A stretch of 64,000 nt of DNA. Source: Pacificispira spongiicola. GTDB taxonomy: Bacteria > Pseudomonadota > Alphaproteobacteria > UBA8366 > Aestuariispiraceae. A program made the position numbers and the translations under genes. Numbering within the stretch: the first letter of the stretch is position 1; each line of letters opens with the position of its first letter. Location: positions 434,001-498,000 of the forward strand of contig NZ_JABBNT010000003.1 of NCBI RefSeq assembly GCF_012926505.1, written 5' to 3'. Positions 9,367 through 42,318 of the stretch are shown here, piece by piece. Under the pieces are notes generated by a model. The model ran no database searches. It was not told where the DNA came from and saw nothing but the letters and a program-made list of their open reading frames with translations.

Positions 9367-9417
9367 TTACTTACCTCTCCTCCGTCACACCCGACGGAAA
9401 TTGGGTTGTAGCGGTTT

Positions 9418-9625
9418 CTCGGCAGGTTTCCCGGCTCGCGGGTCGACGCTCCATCGCCAGCCTTCCCGGATCGATCGATCCAGTGGCCTGTCCGAACCGT
9501 CGTCTCTTGGGACGGTCGATCCGGGGCGGCGGAACTCTCCGCTCACGGTTGCGGGGGCAGCCCGGGCTTCGGTTCCCTGATGGGTAAACCGTTCCCGTGT
9601 TCCCTTTTCACTCCAAGGCCTTCAT
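9418..9625 (-). promoter_or_regulatory. Cobalamin riboswitch upstream of cbtBA
   Basis: Read on the minus strand, this 5' leader has the conserved cobalamin-aptamer blocks in order: GCCTTGGAGTGAAAAGGGAA (about 9620-9600), then the B12-box core GCTGCCCCCGCAACCGTGA (9543-9561), then a GGGAAGGC block, then CGAGCCGGGAAACCTGCC (9421-9438). It ends about 50 bases before the cbtB ribosome site. High cobalamin should shut off cbtBA. I cannot tell from sequence alone whether the switch acts by termination or by hiding the ribosome site. Confidence 0.93.
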
Positions 9626-9710
9626 GACCCGTTCAGGAGCACCGAGATGCTTAATGGACACAGTATTGTAACGGTGTGGATCGAACGTCAAGCGCCGCAA
9701 TTGGCGTGGC

Positions 9711-36082: not shown

Positions 36083-37867
36083 TTACTCCGCCGCTTCCTT
36101 GGAGGCGAGCAGCTCCGGATTCGGCAGGTAATCGTCGATGGAAACCGGATCGATCTGCGACGGGTCCAGGAATTCGTCGGCATAGCGTTGCCAGACGCCC
36201 GATTTCAGGAACAGGTCGAACAGATCGGCGTCGATATGCTGATCCTGGCACATGAATTTCATGATTTTCAGCGACTCGCTGATCGTCTTGGCCTTCTTGT
36301 ACGGACGGTCGGCGGCGGTCAGGGCCTCGAAGATATCGGCGATGGCCATGATCCGCGCCGGGATTGACATATCCGACTTCTTCAACCCGCGCGGATAGCC
36401 GGTGCCGTCCATCTTTTCGTGGTGGCCGCCGGCATATTCCGGGACGCGCTTCATCTTCTTCGGGAAGGGCAGCTGTTCCAGCATCTTGATCGTGACGACG
36501 ATGTGGTCGTTGATCTTTTCCCGCTCTTCCGCCGTCAGCGTGCCGCGCCGGATCGACAGGTTGTAGAGTTCGCCCTGATTGTACTGGTCGACCAGATGTT
36601 CGGGCAGGTCGCCCAGCAGCGGTTCCGTCGCCGGCGGCGGCGGCGGCGGGTTCTGTTTGACGCGCAGGGCTTCGACCGGGCTCAATCCCATGGCCTTGTC
36701 GAAATGCCGCGTCCAGGTCTGCGCGCCGATTTCCTTCAGGCGCACGATATCCTCGTCATCCATGAATTCGCCGCCGACATTGGCCGTGGCGACGAAATGG
36801 TATTCTTCCTGGAGCTTGTCGCAGGCGAATTGGAAATCCCGGTCGCAGGTATCGGGGTCTTCCCCGGCCAGCTTGCGCTTCAGACAGTCGATTTCCGCAT
36901 CCCGGCGCAGAACCTCGAACCGGGTGCGGACCTCGTGAATCCGGTTATAGATCGTCTCCAGCTTGGAGGCCTTGTCGACGACATATTCCGGTGTCGTAAC
37001 CTTGCCGCAATCGTGAAGCCAGGCCGCGACATGCAGTTCGTACCACTGGTCCTCGTTCAGGTCGAAGCCCTTGAAGATACCGTATTCGGCCTCGCAGGCG
37101 GCTTCGGCCAGCAGCTTCGTAATTTCCGGCACGCGCTGACAATGGCCGCCGGTATAGGGCGACTTGTCATCGATCGACGCCGCGATCATCTCGATCAACG
37201 AGTTCCACAGGGCCCGTTGCTGCTGGATCAGCATCTGGTTTTCAAGCGCGACCGCCGCCTGACTGGTCAGCGCCTCGATCATCGCCTGCATCGACGTTTC
37301 GAACGGGATCGTCGTGCCGCCCATATCCCGCGCATTGATCAACTGCAGGACACCGATGACTTCCCGCGCCGTGTTGATCATCGGCACGGTCAGGAAGGAA
37401 CAGGACCGATATCCGGTCGTTTCGTCGAATTTCTTGGTGCCGGAGAAGTCGAACTCCTCCGCCTCGTAGGCGTCGGCGATATTGCTCGCCGTGGCCTGAT
37501 GATAGACCGCCGACGCGACGTTGTTCATATTCTTGGAACCGTCGGGACGGTACAACGGGACCGGCGGGAACGGGATTTTCTTGCCCGTCGTGCCGCCCAT
37601 GGCGATGTTCAACGTGTCGTTCCGCATGATCTGGAAGGACAGACCGGTTTCGTCCTCCGTCACCAGATACAGGGTGCCGCCGTCGGCGTTGTAGATCGAT
37701 TTCGCCTCCAGGAGGATCATCTCCATCAGGCGGTCGTGATTCTTCTCCGCCGAAAGCGCAATGCCCAGCTCCACCAGCCGATGGACCATCTTTTCACCCG
37801 CGCGCCGCCCGAATGGGTGGTCGCGGCGATCGTCCTCACTGCCGATAGCGTCTTGGTCCTGACTCAT
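36083..37867 (-). CDS. GAF and HD-GYP domain phosphohydrolase
   Basis: A 594-residue soluble protein. A GAF domain (about 25-210; YRSCSFLTVPMIN, VIGVLQLINARD) precedes an HD-GYP domain. The HD motif is AAWLHDCGK and the GYP motif GGHHEKMDGTGYPRG, both intact, so c-di-GMP hydrolysis is expected. Between them is an unusually long insert of roughly 200 residues containing KLETIYNRIHEVRTRFEVL and a run of six prolines; the same layout occurs in other GAF-HD-GYP proteins I know of. The ligand of the GAF domain is unknown. ATG at 37867 is preferred to a TTG five codons upstream. Confidence 0.88.
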   Translation of the reverse strand: MSQDQDAIGSEDDRRDHPFGRRAGEKMVHRLVELGIALSAEKNHDRLMEMILLEAKSIYNADGGTLYLVTEDETGLSFQIMRNDTLNIAMGGTTGKKIPFPPVPLYRPDGSKNMNNVASAVYHQATASNIADAYEAEEFDFSGTKKFDETTGYRSCSFLTVPMINTAREVIGVLQLINARDMGGTTIPFETSMQAMIEALTSQAAVALENQMLIQQQRALWNSLIEMIAASIDDKSPYTGGHCQRVPEITKLLAEAACEAEYGIFKGFDLNEDQWYELHVAAWLHDCGKVTTPEYVVDKASKLETIYNRIHEVRTRFEVLRRDAEIDCLKRKLAGEDPDTCDRDFQFACDKLQEEYHFVATANVGGEFMDDEDIVRLKEIGAQTWTRHFDKAMGLSPVEALRVKQNPPPPPPATEPLLGDLPEHLVDQYNQGELYNLSIRRGTLTAEEREKINDHIVVTIKMLEQLPFPKKMKRVPEYAGGHHEKMDGTGYPRGLKKSDMSIPARIMAIADIFEALTAADRPYKKAKTISESLKIMKFMCQDQHIDADLFDLFLKSGVWQRYADEFLDPSQIDPVSIDDYLPNPELLASKEAAE

Positions 37868-38067
37868 GCCTTTTTTATCCAATCGCCGTCACGCACAACC
37901 ATGGACCACCTTCCCCAGGGCCCAGATTGTTAGCCTGCATATCATTCTCAACTGAATCTATGCCAGGATCACGCGGTTTTTTCGCAGTCTAGCACAGGCA
38001 CGAATGATGTATACGACGACATTGCGCGGCGCGGCATGGCGAATGGGGCCGAGTCCCCCCGGGCGGT

Positions 38068-39447
38068 CTAGTTCAACGGCGCGGTGCCGGAACCTGAAAA
38101 ACCGTTATGGGTCAGTGTCGTGGACAGTGAATTCGTCCCAGTAAACGTTACGACGGCCTCGCAAGACGAACAACCGGTTCCCCCTGCGGCGATGCCGTTT
38201 GATCCGCCAATGGTCAGGCCGGTGGCGGAGTCGGACAGCGCCGTGCTGCCTTCCGAGATATTGAAGGTCGCATTGCCGGCCAAGCCTCCACCGTTCAGAT
38301 CCCGGAACTGAATATCGAAGGTCCGCGCCGACAGATCGATATAAGTGTTGAACAGCCCGGTGATATCCCCGGACAGGACATTGTCATTGCTGCCGACGGA
38401 CGATGCGCCGGCATTGGCGGAAATGATGTCGCCGAAGGTTGTGCTGTTCGCGCCGGTGGACGACGCGCCGGTGGTGATGTCGTTCGACTGCGATGCGTTG
38501 TTCGTATTGACGGCGACGGTCATGACTTGCGTAAACGACGTGTCCTTGGACGCTCCGGATTGGGACGACAGGTTGCCCGACGAGGATTGGGATGTGCCGC
38601 CACCCGACGCTGAGCTGCCCGAAGAGGACGTCCCGCCGGAACCCGTTCCGGTGCCGGAATCGGCCGAATTGTCGTCCCCGCCGTCGCCACCATCGGCGTC
38701 GCCGGATTGCGTGCCGCGGCCGGTCAGTGACTGTGACACATTGTTCACGGCGCCCGGCGGCGCGATGAAAAAGACCGGCGGTTGACCCGGGGTGGCGAGA
38801 ACCGCGCCGCCCGGCCGGTTCAGATCGACGCTGCCGTTCGGGCTGGAGAAGGTGAAAGACCCGGTACTCGACCCGGTCTGGCTCAACGGGCCGGGACCTG
38901 CCAGCGCCGCGAAGACGACCGGTTGGTTCGGCTGGGGGGCGACCTGCTGCGATTGATCCGGGAATTGCTGGGCTGCCTGATCGGGCGTGAGGATCGATAC
39001 CACGCCGATCGTGCCGCGAATACCGATGGTGCCGACCGGTAGCTTGATGACCATGCTGTCCGGGTTGCCGTCGGAAACCTTGCCGGTCACGAAGCGCATG
39101 ACTCCTTTCGTCATATTCGCGGCCAGGGACCCGTCGCCCGTCGCGGGGTCATAGACGAATTCGTCGATCGAAATTTCGCTGTCCGCCCCGATCGTGAAAA
39201 CGGTTTCGTCCATCAACAGGATTTGCATGCCGGAATCGCTGCCGGATGTGATGGCGTCGCGCATATAGATCGCCTCGCCGCTGGAAATCTGGCGGCCGAC
39301 GGCATCGGTCCGCGCGACCTGTACCGCCCCGCGGACGGCGGCGGAAACCCCGGCTTGCACCGCGTCTTGCGCCACCGAAGGCGCGGACCATAGCGCAGCC
39401 CCGGATATCAGGCTGACGGTTAGGAAGTTCCGAAATGTCGTATTCAT
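38068..39447 (-). CDS. Exported FecR-domain protein with Ser/Gly linker and beta-rich C-terminus
   Basis: A 459-residue protein with a signal peptide (cleavage after PSVAQ, residue 27). Residues about 35-150 are a FecR domain (SSGEAIYMRDAITSG, GVMRFVTGKV, LPVGTIGIRGT). Residues about 245-300 are a Ser/Gly/Asp-rich linker. The C-terminal 95 residues (YIDLSARTFDIQFRD, GNATFNISEG, a CSSC pair at 426-429) look like short beta strands, somewhat like the barrel handle of Slam substrates; that comparison is by eye. No lipobox and no anchor are seen. AAAGGA precedes the ATG at 39447. It follows the Slam-like barrel gene by 104 bases and is probably its exported client. Confidence 0.75.
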   Translation of the reverse strand: MNTTFRNFLTVSLISGAALWSAPSVAQDAVQAGVSAAVRGAVQVARTDAVGRQISSGEAIYMRDAITSGSDSGMQILLMDETVFTIGADSEISIDEFVYDPATGDGSLAANMTKGVMRFVTGKVSDGNPDSMVIKLPVGTIGIRGTIGVVSILTPDQAAQQFPDQSQQVAPQPNQPVVFAALAGPGPLSQTGSSTGSFTFSSPNGSVDLNRPGGAVLATPGQPPVFFIAPPGAVNNVSQSLTGRGTQSGDADGGDGGDDNSADSGTGTGSGGTSSSGSSASGGGTSQSSSGNLSSQSGASKDTSFTQVMTVAVNTNNASQSNDITTGASSTGANSTTFGDIISANAGASSVGSNDNVLSGDITGLFNTYIDLSARTFDIQFRDLNGGGLAGNATFNISEGSTALSDSATGLTIGGSNGIAAGGTGCSSCEAVVTFTGTNSLSTTLTHNGFSGSGTAPLN

Positions 39448-39551
39448 ACCGATCGTCCTTTCGATGCGCCGGTCCGGCTGGCAGCCATTGCGGCGGGCAA
39501 CCGTTCCAGGGGCATCCATTGTTGCGGCGCGTTCCGTTCCGCGCGCCGACT

Positions 39552-41141
39552 TCAAAAATCCAGACGCTTGGTCAGCAGGAACTGCGCCCGTGAGCTGCGA
39601 TATTGGTAGTTCGTGATGTTGGACCGCTGATACGTATGTTCCCCGGTGAAAGAGATCGTCGTGTCTTTCAAAAGATCCGCCAGCAATTCGTCCATATTGC
39701 CGGACGGCCGCTTGGACGCGTCGAAATTGACCAGATCGGCCAACGGCATGCCATAGGTCATGCGCAGCCGGACCGGTTGTTCCAGTCGCCGGACATTCTG
39801 GGCGCCGACGATAAACGCGTCGGCCGACTGATAGCGGCGCGACCCGACCAACAGGTTGGTCAGCAGGAAGCGGCTGTTTTCCAGTAGCCACGTATGGGAA
39901 AGTTCCACGTTGTGATACTGGTAAGAATAGATGCGCGCACCATTGTTGGCCGGATCGGCGGCAGCGGATTTGAACTGGTAATGGCCGACCGCGGACAGAT
40001 AATGGTTGGGGTGGACCAGCATGCCGAAGCCGAGTTTGGCATCGAACTTCTTCCCCTTGCGCAGCGTCAGGCTCTGATAATCGGGCGTGTTGTGATAGCC
40101 CTCGTTCTGCTGGGAAACCAATGCCCAGGTATCGAGAAGGGGCCAGTCCGTGCCGTCGAATTTGTGTTTGTGATCGACCCGAAGCTCAATGCCTTCCGAC
40201 TGATAGAATTTGGTCCAGCCCAACCGCATGTTCGACATGAAGACGCGGGGCGATACGGTGATGCCCGGATAGCGCAGCCTGACGCCCGCATCCAATGACA
40301 TGGAATGAACGTCCTGGCTGCCCGCCTGTTCCGTCAGTGTGTCTGCATACAGGTCGGCGCCGCCGAAAATTTCATGCTGGTTCTGGAATCCCGGATCGTA
40401 GGTTACGTCGTATCCCAGGATCGTCAGGAAACCGAGAATGCCGTTCGGCCGGTCGCTGTTGATGGAAATCGGACTGCGTGTCCCGACGGCGAGAAGTTCT
40501 TCCGACTGGGGTGCCGAGTTTCGGTTCGTGTCGTAATACGATCCGACGCTGATCGTCGCGGACTGTTTCAGCTTCCGGCGGCGTTTCTCGATCCGGTCGA
40601 GATAATCGTCCACGAAAGCCCTTGTTTCCTCATCGAGTTGCAGGCGAGATACCGTCCGGAACTCGCCTTCCGCCTCGTCCATATTGTCCAGACGGAACAG
40701 GACCATCGCGTATAAAAGCCGGACATTTGCCGCGTCCGGCGCTATCAGCAGCACGCGTTCCAGTGTTGCCGCCGCGCCACGGACATCCCCTGTCACGTTC
40801 ACCTGATACAGCGCATAGCAGATGTTGAGTTGCACATCGTCGGGATTGGTCAGGATATCCGCATAGGTCACCGTGTCCGGACAATTGGGATCGTTCATGC
40901 TCTCGATGGCGATCCGGCTAGCCCGGAGCGTCTGTTCGACCTCCGACGTTCTCGTGTCCTGCTCCTCAATCCCTTGTTCGGGCGACACCGTTTGCGCGGA
41001 CACCGTATTGGCGGAAAAACCGCCAATGACAACGGCCAGGGCAGTCGCACCAAAGACTTGCGCCGCGAGACGCTTAACGAGGCAGCACGGTTCAACCGCT
41101 GCCAGCCGACTTTGGGCTGCAAAATGCTTAAATAAAATCAC
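39552..41141 (-). CDS. TPR plus outer-membrane beta-barrel protein, Slam-like
   Basis: A 529-residue protein. A signal peptide region (ALAVVIGGFSANTVSAQ, about 34-50) is followed by TPR-like helices (about 90-195; AAATLERVLLIAPDAANVRL, MDEAEGEFRTV) and a C-terminal beta-barrel (about 205-529). The barrel opens with ISVGSYYDTNRNSAP, similar to the G-x-DSN-x-N-AP opening of surface lipoprotein assembly modulators (Slam, DUF560), and ends in an aromatic residue (LTKRLDF), as outer-membrane barrels do. Slam proteins move partner proteins across the outer membrane. GTG start at 41141 after GGGGGTGAAG. It heads a two-gene unit with the FecR-domain protein. Confidence 0.78.
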   Translation of the reverse strand: MILFKHFAAQSRLAAVEPCCLVKRLAAQVFGATALAVVIGGFSANTVSAQTVSPEQGIEEQDTRTSEVEQTLRASRIAIESMNDPNCPDTVTYADILTNPDDVQLNICYALYQVNVTGDVRGAAATLERVLLIAPDAANVRLLYAMVLFRLDNMDEAEGEFRTVSRLQLDEETRAFVDDYLDRIEKRRRKLKQSATISVGSYYDTNRNSAPQSEELLAVGTRSPISINSDRPNGILGFLTILGYDVTYDPGFQNQHEIFGGADLYADTLTEQAGSQDVHSMSLDAGVRLRYPGITVSPRVFMSNMRLGWTKFYQSEGIELRVDHKHKFDGTDWPLLDTWALVSQQNEGYHNTPDYQSLTLRKGKKFDAKLGFGMLVHPNHYLSAVGHYQFKSAAADPANNGARIYSYQYHNVELSHTWLLENSRFLLTNLLVGSRRYQSADAFIVGAQNVRRLEQPVRLRMTYGMPLADLVNFDASKRPSGNMDELLADLLKDTTISFTGEHTYQRSNITNYQYRSSRAQFLLTKRLDF

Positions 41142-41325: not shown

Positions 41326-42153
41326 CTAGATTAAATTTATCCTCATATTTTCCCGTGCGACGATGGCGCCGGACCATGTGTTGCGGGCTTCCAGTTCCAG
41401 CGATTCCATGAAGGCGTCGTCATGGGTCGGATCATGGTGGAAGATGGCCAGCATCTTTACATTCGCCGCCTTGCACAGGCGCACGCCCTCTTCCCAGGTG
41501 GAATGACCCCAACCGACCTTTTCCGGAAATTCCGCTTCCGTATAGGTGCTGTCGTAGATGACGAGGTCGCTGCCTTCGATCAGGCCCAGGATATTCTGGT
41601 CGGGCTGCCCCGGAACATGTTCGGTGTCGGTGACATAGCAGACCGACTTGCCGCGATGGTCGATGCGGTAGGCCGTCGCCCCGTTCGGGTGGTTCAGGGG
41701 CGTCGTGGAGACCCGGACATTCGGGCCGATATCGAAACTGTCGCCCGCCGAAAAGTCGGAAAATGTCAGGGTGCCGCGCATCGCTTCCAACGGCACAGGG
41801 AAGAACGGCTGCGCCATCTGACCGGACAGAACCTTGCGGATGCCGCCTTCTTCCGGGGCGACATGCCCGGCCATGATTTCGAAGGACCGATCCGGCAGGA
41901 AGGCCGGGGTAAAGAAGGGGAAGCCGTTGATATGGTCCCAATGCGTGTGGGACAGCATCAGATGCGCCTTTTTCACTTCCTTCTTCAGCATCCATTGGCC
42001 CAGCGATCGGATACCGGTCCCGGCGTCGAAGATGATGCGTTCGCCGCCCGCCGCAACCTCGATGCAGCTTGTGTTGCCGCCGAACCCGATATGCTGTGGC
42101 GACGGACAGGCAATGGAACCGCGAACACCCCAGAATTTTACTTTGAAAGCCAT
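41326..42153 (-). CDS. MBL-fold metal-dependent hydrolase
   Basis: A 275-residue metallo-beta-lactamase fold protein. The metal motif is SHTHWDHINGFPFF, with further ligands in NHPNGATAYRI, TDTEH and the late FHHDPTHDD. FWGVRGSIACPSPQHIGFGG and STYTEAEFPEKVGWGHSTWE are typical of a widespread subgroup close to PqsE/cyclic-phosphodiesterase-like hydrolases. The substrate is unknown. ATG at 42153 after GGAAG; it is preceded by a 165-base AT-rich promoter region with a possible minus-strand TTGTTA (42309-42314), an 18-base gap and TAAAAT (42285-42290). Confidence 0.85.
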   Translation of the reverse strand: MAFKVKFWGVRGSIACPSPQHIGFGGNTSCIEVAAGGERIIFDAGTGIRSLGQWMLKKEVKKAHLMLSHTHWDHINGFPFFTPAFLPDRSFEIMAGHVAPEEGGIRKVLSGQMAQPFFPVPLEAMRGTLTFSDFSAGDSFDIGPNVRVSTTPLNHPNGATAYRIDHRGKSVCYVTDTEHVPGQPDQNILGLIEGSDLVIYDSTYTEAEFPEKVGWGHSTWEEGVRLCKAANVKMLAIFHHDPTHDDAFMESLELEARNTWSGAIVARENMRINLI

Positions 42154-42318
42154 GTTATCCCGCTTCCTTAGGCCCCGATCTCGTTCGTTTCGTTTACTTC
42201 TGCGTCCGTCCAAACGATTCGGGCTTTTTAGGTGTCCCTACCAAGGAACAAGGTAAATGTTCAGAAAATATCGTCTAGCAAATAATTTTACCCTATATTC
42301 GCAAGAAATAACAAATAT

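Follow-up and report, generated by a model that had tools for sequence, protein, structure and literature searches.

A Slam-type outer-membrane protein and a FecR-domain protein form a conserved gene pair and a likely signaling unit with CHASE2 cyclases

What does a FecR-domain protein do beside an outer-membrane protein (OMP) that resembles a secretion pore? The question is raised by two co-directional genes of Pacificispira spongiicola on the minus strand of the window, a 64-kb stretch of contig NZ_JABBNT010000003.1 (positions 434,001-498,000 of the forward strand). In the list of open reading frames (ORFs), the OMP gene lies upstream and the FecR-protein gene downstream (Table 1). An earlier reading of the DNA, here called the original prediction, had described a tetratricopeptide repeat (TPR) protein whose barrel opens with a Slam-like YDTNRNSAP motif, followed by a protein with a plain signal peptide, a FecR domain, a Ser/Gly linker, and a beta-rich C terminus with a CSSC pair. 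Every one of these parts lies where it had been placed, the signal peptide being recognized by eye. We examined whether the OMP belongs with the Slam exporters of the type 11 secretion system (T11SS), whether the FecR protein is built like their cargo, and which genes accompany the pair. The results make a signaling unit with CHASE2 cyclases likely; the window species keeps this unit with no cyclase gene alongside.

Pfam and NCBIfam alone say little about the OMP besides its TPRs; Slam membership was therefore tested by profile-profile comparison. Of 299 genomes of this phylum searched for SlipAM, 49 gave a match, 42 of them over the cut-off. Fifteen of 30 fetched proteins made up the SlipAM reference alignment (A5), and 48 relatives of the window OMP made up the query (A4). 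Using hhalign, the relatives and the SlipAM proteins matched over 379 columns of TPR and barrel with an E-value of 4.5e-38; for the barrel alone, the match was 99.8% (E 1.1e-28, 290 columns). Reversed-profile controls of the barrel covered it only in part and reached 59.0% (E 9.3e-5, 167 columns) and 42.3% (E 2.6e-4, 149 columns), so the strand pattern by itself adds something to the barrel match. A further control, the presumed barrel of the receptor NsrA, gave 0.5% and 0.1%. When the 48 relatives were scanned singly at E≤0.01, 24 matched TPR_Slam and 15 matched SlipAM, and other barrel families were matched as well (DUF2860, for example, in 10). The window OMP itself scored 13.5 bits against TPR_Slam, and the OMP of locus L185 matches SlipAM at 52 bits (cut-off, 22).

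Slam barrels have 14 strands. The AlphaFold2 model of the window OMP (pLDDT 91.4, pTM 0.84) has TPR helices over mature residues 44-139 and 14 long strands, following a signal peptide cleaved near residue 49 (by eye), and its architecture of N-terminal periplasmic TPRs and barrel thus agrees with the Slam layout. Residues D204, N206, and P211 of the motif are invariant across 14 homologs. Among the matches listed for this model by Foldseek against the PDB were porins and other barrels (outer-membrane porins best, OmpG and CymA among them; BcsC and PelB also) and no Slam structure; sequence-profile searches of the PDB with the alignments of both proteins gave no convincing match. Overall, profile-profile comparison supports placing the window OMP in the Slam/T11SS superfamily. 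The predicted Slam-like character of the barrel is thus upheld by homology between profiles, the direct Pfam SlipAM match being the part that is missing.

The OMP might instead export a polysaccharide, as a TPR barrel of the PgaA/BcsC kind. A PgaA model does match weakly through the TPRs (E 0.0017), and BcsC and PelB were among the PDB barrels just mentioned. Yet the PgaA match spans residues 67-170 only and scores 16.7 bits (cut-off, 366.65), while the barrel-only Slam match is far stronger (PgaA and BcsC profiles lay outside the direct comparison). No glycosyltransferase gene was noticed among the neighboring ORFs, at which no profile search was aimed. We consider polysaccharide export highly improbable.

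The FecR protein is 607 aa long in the mechanical ORF listing; a plausible ATG start at 39447 gives a protein of 459 aa, which belongs to the FecR family (PF04773, 34.7 bits; Pfam cut-off, 24). Its model, built from 34 sequences, has a mean pLDDT of 70.4 and a pTM of 0.52; over the C-terminal barrel, which is predicted to have 8 to 9 strands, ten-residue pLDDT means run from 52 to 92 and mostly exceed 70. Foldseek against the PDB gave 532 matches at E≤10 for this model, of which 50 were listed. The first is the periplasmic domain of PupR, which is of the FecR type. Slam/T11SS-type surface proteins account for 45 of the 50: 40 rows of fHbp, TbpB, haemophilin, or PmSLP and 5 of NHBA, whose Slam dependence is assumed and to which we assign row 31 by presumption. 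The remaining four rows comprise a porin, apolipoprotein M, and one staphylococcal protein that appears twice. Apart from four fHbp rows considered below, most alignments cover about 110 to 145 columns, and the best target-side TM-score among the matches listed is 0.60 (NHBA). By fold, then, the modeled C-terminal region resembles Slam clients.

Relatives of the FecR protein give a similar picture in fainter form. Two of 32 other FecR proteins scanned singly matched TbpB_B_D and two matched FHBP_C, all weakly (E≤1; best values, 2e-4 and 0.012). That of L185, whose adjoining OMP is the SlipAM match given above, reaches 22.3 bits for TbpB_B_D (cut-off, 26) over its last 115 residues. The search for TbpB-type handles proposed with the original prediction therefore succeeds faintly for 2 of the 32 relatives and fails for the window protein. 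Against NCBIfam, the window protein matched an adhesin model (Lsa33) at a score far short of that model's cut-off and otherwise gave little beyond FecR. A hidden Markov model (HMM) of the C-terminal domain (24 rows) reaches well within the near clade and fades in Omnitrophota and Elusimicrobiota. We also compared 66 FecR proteins from two alignments (A3 and A6), a set that does not represent one protein for each of the 66 loci described below. FecR begins at residues 4 to 154 (median, 33) and is followed by 149 to 898 residues; 39 of the 66 have a C-x(1-8)-C pair within the last 90 residues, and 2 have a lipobox-like pattern. Some known T11SS clients are likewise unlipidated (PMC12282271; papers are cited here from excerpts of their text). 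The rule that every FecR protein beside such an OMP carries a client barrel was considered and rejected, as it fails on L113 and L115. Judged by the model, the window FecR protein seems to carry the usual T11SS client handle behind an unusual FecR front part. The expectation of a different kind of substrate thus fits its N-terminal part and not its handle.

FecR and the PupR match would also suit classical iron-regulated sigma-factor signaling of the FecI/FecR/FecA type. By eye, the FecR protein lacks a cytoplasmic anti-sigma segment and, apart from the signal peptide, any transmembrane helix, and neither a sigma factor nor a TonB receptor was noticed by eye among the ORFs around the pair. The chance that classical FecR signaling explains the locus is, in our estimate, close to negligible.

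To what extent are the two genes kept together? A wide search with one genome per species yielded 66 loci with OMP relatives. They are largely alphaproteobacterial, with many from Thalassospira; others are labeled Omnitrophota, Elusimicrobia, and Deltaproteobacteria/Myxococcaceae, and many are metagenome bins. The record CP051228.1, which holds L021 and L061, is titled Mesoflavibacter (Bacteroidota); L021 groups tightly with the alphaproteobacterial relatives of the window, and the label is probably wrong. A FecR gene adjoins the OMP gene in 60 of the 66 loci, in the order OMP-FecR in 53, FecR-OMP in 5, and in opposite orientation in 2. The OMP-FecR gap has a median of 23 bp, and the two genes lie within 200 bp of each other in 58 of the 60 (approximate values, as a script was used to guess where the genes of relatives begin). 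A second FecR gene is present in eight loci. No FecR gene was found in L072, which stops at a contig end, nor in L048, L049, L054, L056, and L081, four of which form one clade. A first search had found a FecR ORF in 15 of 20 loci, the window's own included; the others were a contig fragment (L012) and weaker or TPR-only matches (L014, L015, L016, and L020). Since homologs keep both ORFs adjacent, the pairing exceeds chance, and the genes are linked in relatives as the original prediction anticipated.

In a quickly built tree of 85 OMPs, the presence of FecR requires five changes, at least three of which are forced by strongly supported branches, with gains and losses undistinguished. Linkage to FecR is therefore spread over several superfamily branches and extends to the Pfam-recognized SlipAM proteins of L097, L113, L114, and L115. 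For the SlipAM loci (L087-L116), flanks of about 1.5 kb were searched, and absence of FecR there means absence within that reach.

Linkage does not end with the pair. With an HMM of our own making, a CHASE2 cyclase gene was identified in at least 47 of the 66 loci, a lower bound because many loci stop at contig ends; a Pfam scan of 8 of the 47 found CHASE2 and a cyclase domain in all 8. In L021-L023, the loci nearest to the window, the order is MBL, OMP, FecR, CHASE2 cyclase, and HD-GYP. The original prediction had suggested a surface or secreted system of its own; given the frequency of the cyclase gene, the system is probably not a stand-alone one, and the association points to signaling. 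It suggests a cell-surface signaling device and not plain secretion.

We then surveyed CHASE2 genes, taking 40 alphaproteobacterial loci from 37 genomes, hand-picked from the matches listed. Within about 6 kb, 16 of them have a FecR gene and 8 a Slam-type OMP gene, and all 8 also have FecR (Fisher p 1.7e-4 for the co-occurrence of OMP and FecR). That L157, one of the 40, carries the pair was known beforehand; without it, the counts are 15 and 7 of 39. Several of the contigs are short (L159 has 4,494 bases), and the FecR background, from one genome, is about 1 per Mb (4 matches in 4.2 Mb). The other half of the 16 FecR-bearing loci lack a Slam-type OMP. In L160, FecR is tied to CHASE2 with a protein that has RTX repeats. 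A small FecR protein near CHASE2 and without the OMP (L188, FecR at 175-262 of a 264-aa frame) does not fit the pattern of an N-terminal FecR.

Two loci of the window species' own genome extend this picture. L124 (C12:304000-323000) has in a row an ABC-type secretion gene (type I, by eye), a FecR frame of 4230 aa whose RTX-like repeats were likewise recognized by eye, and, directly after it, a CHASE2 cyclase gene; as read by eye, this is a FecR-CHASE2 pair using another export route. L125 (C1:752000-768000) holds a 2869-aa frame with a FecR domain and has no CHASE2 match within the 16 kb fetched. Conversely, L105 (2-3831) combines a TbpB_B_D cargo gene (over the cut-off), a SlipAM gene, and a CHASE2-like gene and has no FecR; L100 and L104 are laid out alike, with a cargo match that is weak in L104 and absent in L100.

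Plain T11SS secretion would account for part of these data. The FecR protein would then be an adhesin or binding protein, displayed or secreted after being exported whole, and the cyclase, MBL, and HD-GYP proteins would only regulate its expression. The client barrel and the Slam homology agree with this, as do the surface-exposed or secreted nature of known T11SS cargo (PMC12282271) and the FecR domains in giant proteins of the same genome. Yet the tie of FecR to CHASE2 is wider than the OMP family: it recurs in 16 of the 40 surveyed loci, 8 of them without the OMP, in the RTX locus L160, in LysM-FecR kinase systems (PMC5192318), and beside cyaK. A tie reaching beyond this family is left unexplained by mere regulation of one adhesin, and we think this account unlikely.

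The explanation that we favor, by a modest preference, is a transenvelope pathway of cyclic-nucleotide signaling whose outer-membrane half consists of the T11SS-type exporter and the FecR protein as its cargo. Homology, domain architecture, the client-type barrel, conserved linkage, and the CHASE2 association are supported by computation. On these we build a scheme in which engagement of the OMP with its client, client recognition, topology, the FecR-CHASE2 contact, and the direction of the signal are what we infer. The OMP would be a pore of the Slam/T11SS superfamily and the FecR protein its likely client, delivered to the periplasm in soluble form. The client barrel would engage the pore and become exposed at or beyond the surface, and FecR would face the periplasm during some or all of the client's life. 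There, the periplasmic CHASE2 domain of an inner-membrane adenylate or guanylate cyclase may read it, and a surface or export state would thereby be turned into a cyclic nucleotide. Two CHASE2 genes lie in other parts of the window species' genome; because the operon lacks a cyclase gene, the product of one of these would be the partner in this species.

A receptor that works without export is the other account to be weighed. The gene directly upstream of cyaK on pSymB of Sinorhizobium meliloti, which we take to be nsrA, encodes a FecR protein of 1190 aa, in which FecR occupies residues 66-160 and the TPRs follow at about 420-590. Signal perception in this species requires NsrA, an outer-membrane receptor, along with the cyclases CyaK and CyaD1/D2, and the barrel of NsrA has been placed at residues 600-1200 (PMC7529298), a position that fits our identification of the gene; the three cyclases have been called CHASE2 cyclases (PMC13001267). 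By analogy, the OMP would be a Slam-derived scaffold or receptor, NsrA-like in function, and the FecR protein would stay periplasmic, docked on the TPRs or in the barrel, and relay a signal to CHASE2. Presumed NsrA, described as a receptor (PMC7529298), has FecR and TPRs ahead of its barrel, and L113 and L115 have OMP, FecR, and CHASE2 with a FecR protein that has no recognized barrel. The client-type C-terminal barrel of the window protein, together with the weak traces of client families in 2 and 2 of 32 relatives, fits export better. We regard reception without export as possible but doubtful. The idea that NsrA is itself a FecR protein fused to a Slam barrel was rejected, as its presumed barrel has no homology to the Slam barrel.

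Several findings weigh against the favored pathway, in which an exported FecR client signals to a cyclase. As regards the exporter, Pfam SlipAM (PF04575) matches neither the window OMP nor anything else in its genome. As regards the client, the window FecR protein matches no Pfam client family (TbpB_B_D, FHBP_C, or the like). Its Foldseek E-values are weak (best 1.7e-3, none ≤0.001), and the four fHbp rows, being global alignments with a root mean square deviation above 21, mean little. Client C termini diverge strongly, and one client was modeled. The second FecR gene of L066 leaves just 149 residues past FecR, and the FecR frames of L113 and L115 (342 and 354 aa), in loci with SlipAM and CHASE2 genes, have no recognized client barrel. 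As regards the partner, the window is the L021-L023 order minus the cyclase, with 185 bp (37883-38067) between the FecR and HD-GYP genes; the five loci L048, L049, L054, L056, and L081 have the OMP and a CHASE2 cyclase gene and no FecR gene; and 24 of the 40 picked CHASE2 loci have no FecR within about 6 kb. NsrA, whose presumed barrel is not homologous to the Slam barrel, can serve as an analog only. Finally, the S. meliloti FecR gene smc02177, near cyaD1, is dispensable for perception of the plant signal in a strain where three cyclases act (PMC5498481).

The large architectures have one feature in common: FecR stands toward the N terminus and is followed by an outer-membrane barrel (presumed NsrA), an RTX-type body (L160 and L124), or a T11SS client barrel. 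On a simple reading, FecR would be left or held in the periplasm, where CHASE2 could read it, while the rest of the protein engages the outer membrane. We offer, tentatively, a generalization for which we hold no great expectation: CHASE2 sensors may read FecR as a periplasmic reporter on proteins that pass through the outer membrane or reside in it, be they T11SS clients, RTX giants, or NsrA-type barrels. A Slam-type pore with a partly exported FecR client would then act as a trans-outer-membrane receptor, relaying from the surface barrel to periplasmic FecR and on to a cyclic nucleotide.

The genes flanking the pair are listed in Table 1. For the MBL-fold protein, all NCBIfam matches are below cut-off: ribonuclease Z models rank at the top (69 bits; cut-off, 252), and a cyclic-nucleotide phosphodiesterase model ranks fourth (46 bits; cut-off, 400). 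The HD-GYP gene follows the CHASE2 cyclase gene in L021-L023 and L043 and follows FecR in L025, which, like the window, has no cyclase gene. Also upstream are MotA/MotB-type genes (by eye), and downstream, on the opposite strand, is PhoX (Pfam). Overall, the surrounding ORFs look like genes for photolyase, PhoX, HD-GYP, MBL, and MotA/MotB-type proteins, with Pfam checks covering PhoX, HD-GYP, and MBL. A scan for promoters and terminators gave no clear excess over shuffled sequences (2 promoter-like hits versus a mean of 2.7; 8 terminator-like hits versus a mean of 6.4). Elsewhere in the window, a cobalamin riboswitch lies at 9404-9661 on the minus strand (90.4 bits).

Table 1. Features of the gene pair and its flanking genes (window positions)
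Feature	Position	Strand	Basis or remark
OMP ORF, Slam-type, with signal peptide, TPR, and 14-strand barrel	39552..41141	-	529 aa, GTG start
TPR_19 match, periplasmic TPR domain, residues 118-170	40632..40790	-	Pfam, over cut-off
YDTNRNSAP motif at barrel opening, residues 203-211	40509..40535	-	sequence
14-strand transmembrane barrel, residues 191-528	39558..40571	-	DSSP of AlphaFold2 model
FecR-domain exported protein with C-terminal cargo-type barrel	38068..39447	-	459 aa, ATG at 39447
Sec-type signal peptide without lipobox, residues 1-26	39370..39447	-	by eye
FecR domain, full-length residues 64-147	39007..39258	-	PF04773, 35.5 bits on mature protein
Disordered Ser/Gly/Thr-rich linker, 90 residues (245-334; mature 219-308)	38446..38715	-	pLDDT <50, composition
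C-terminal beta-barrel, predicted T11SS targeting barrel, residues 350-459 (mature 324-433)	38071..38400	-	model, 8-9 strands
CSSC pair in hairpin of C-terminal barrel, residues 426-429	38161..38172	-	sequence and model
MBL-fold hydrolase gene, upstream of pair	41326..42213	-	Pfam PF12706; same place in L021-L025
GAF-HD-GYP protein gene, downstream of pair	36083..37882	-	Pfam

The factors recognized by CHASE2 domains were not known in 2016 (PMC5192318), and the recurring pairing of FecR and CHASE2 genes names a concrete partner candidate. The T11SS gains a client architecture and a possible signaling role that are absent from the T11SS literature searched, as far as its excerpts go, and a possible route emerges from outer-membrane receptors such as NsrA to inner-membrane cyclases. 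If the generalization offered above is true, it would represent an unrecognized class of envelope signaling in Pseudomonadota, Myxococcota, Omnitrophota, and Elusimicrobiota, as judged by record labels.

How does the pair compare with known systems? As in the T11SS (Slam, DUF560, or SlipAM), a TPR and barrel OMP adjoins a Sec-exported client with a C-terminal beta-barrel. Unlike there, the window client has FecR as its effector part, carried by a long disordered linker, neither a TonB nor a heme gene was noticed among the window ORFs, a CHASE2 cyclase gene accompanies 47 of 66 relatives, and the window OMP lies beyond the direct reach of Pfam SlipAM. In the available main text of one T11SS survey, FecR, CHASE2, and cyclase do not occur (PMC12282271), nor does FecR in that of another (PMC8406197); none of the papers listed by a full-text literature search combines a T11SS or Slam term with a FecR-domain or CHASE2 term. 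NsrA-CyaK, with the gene presumed to be nsrA, is similar in joining FecR, TPRs, and a described barrel beside a CHASE2 cyclase and differs in being one chain, with a barrel without homology to Slam and no separate client barrel. In magnetotactic bacteria, a CHASE2/adenylate cyclase gene comes after mtxA, and the excerpts make no mention of FecR (PMC4439547). The BiofilmReg operon of Burkholderia, in which a LysM-FecR protein occurs with a CHASE2 histidine kinase, has LysM in place of a client barrel, a kinase in place of a cyclase, and, in the text available, no mention of a Slam-type OMP (PMC5192318); like our pair and its partners, it sets an exported FecR protein beside a CHASE2 sensor. In Campylobacterota, compared here by description, the TPR protein was not identified as a Slam-type barrel in the excerpts, nor the FecR protein as cargo. 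The gene partners themselves are the same: the adenylate cyclases identified there carry CHASE2, and most lie in clusters that also encode a phosphodiesterase and FecR and TPR proteins (PMC9239204).

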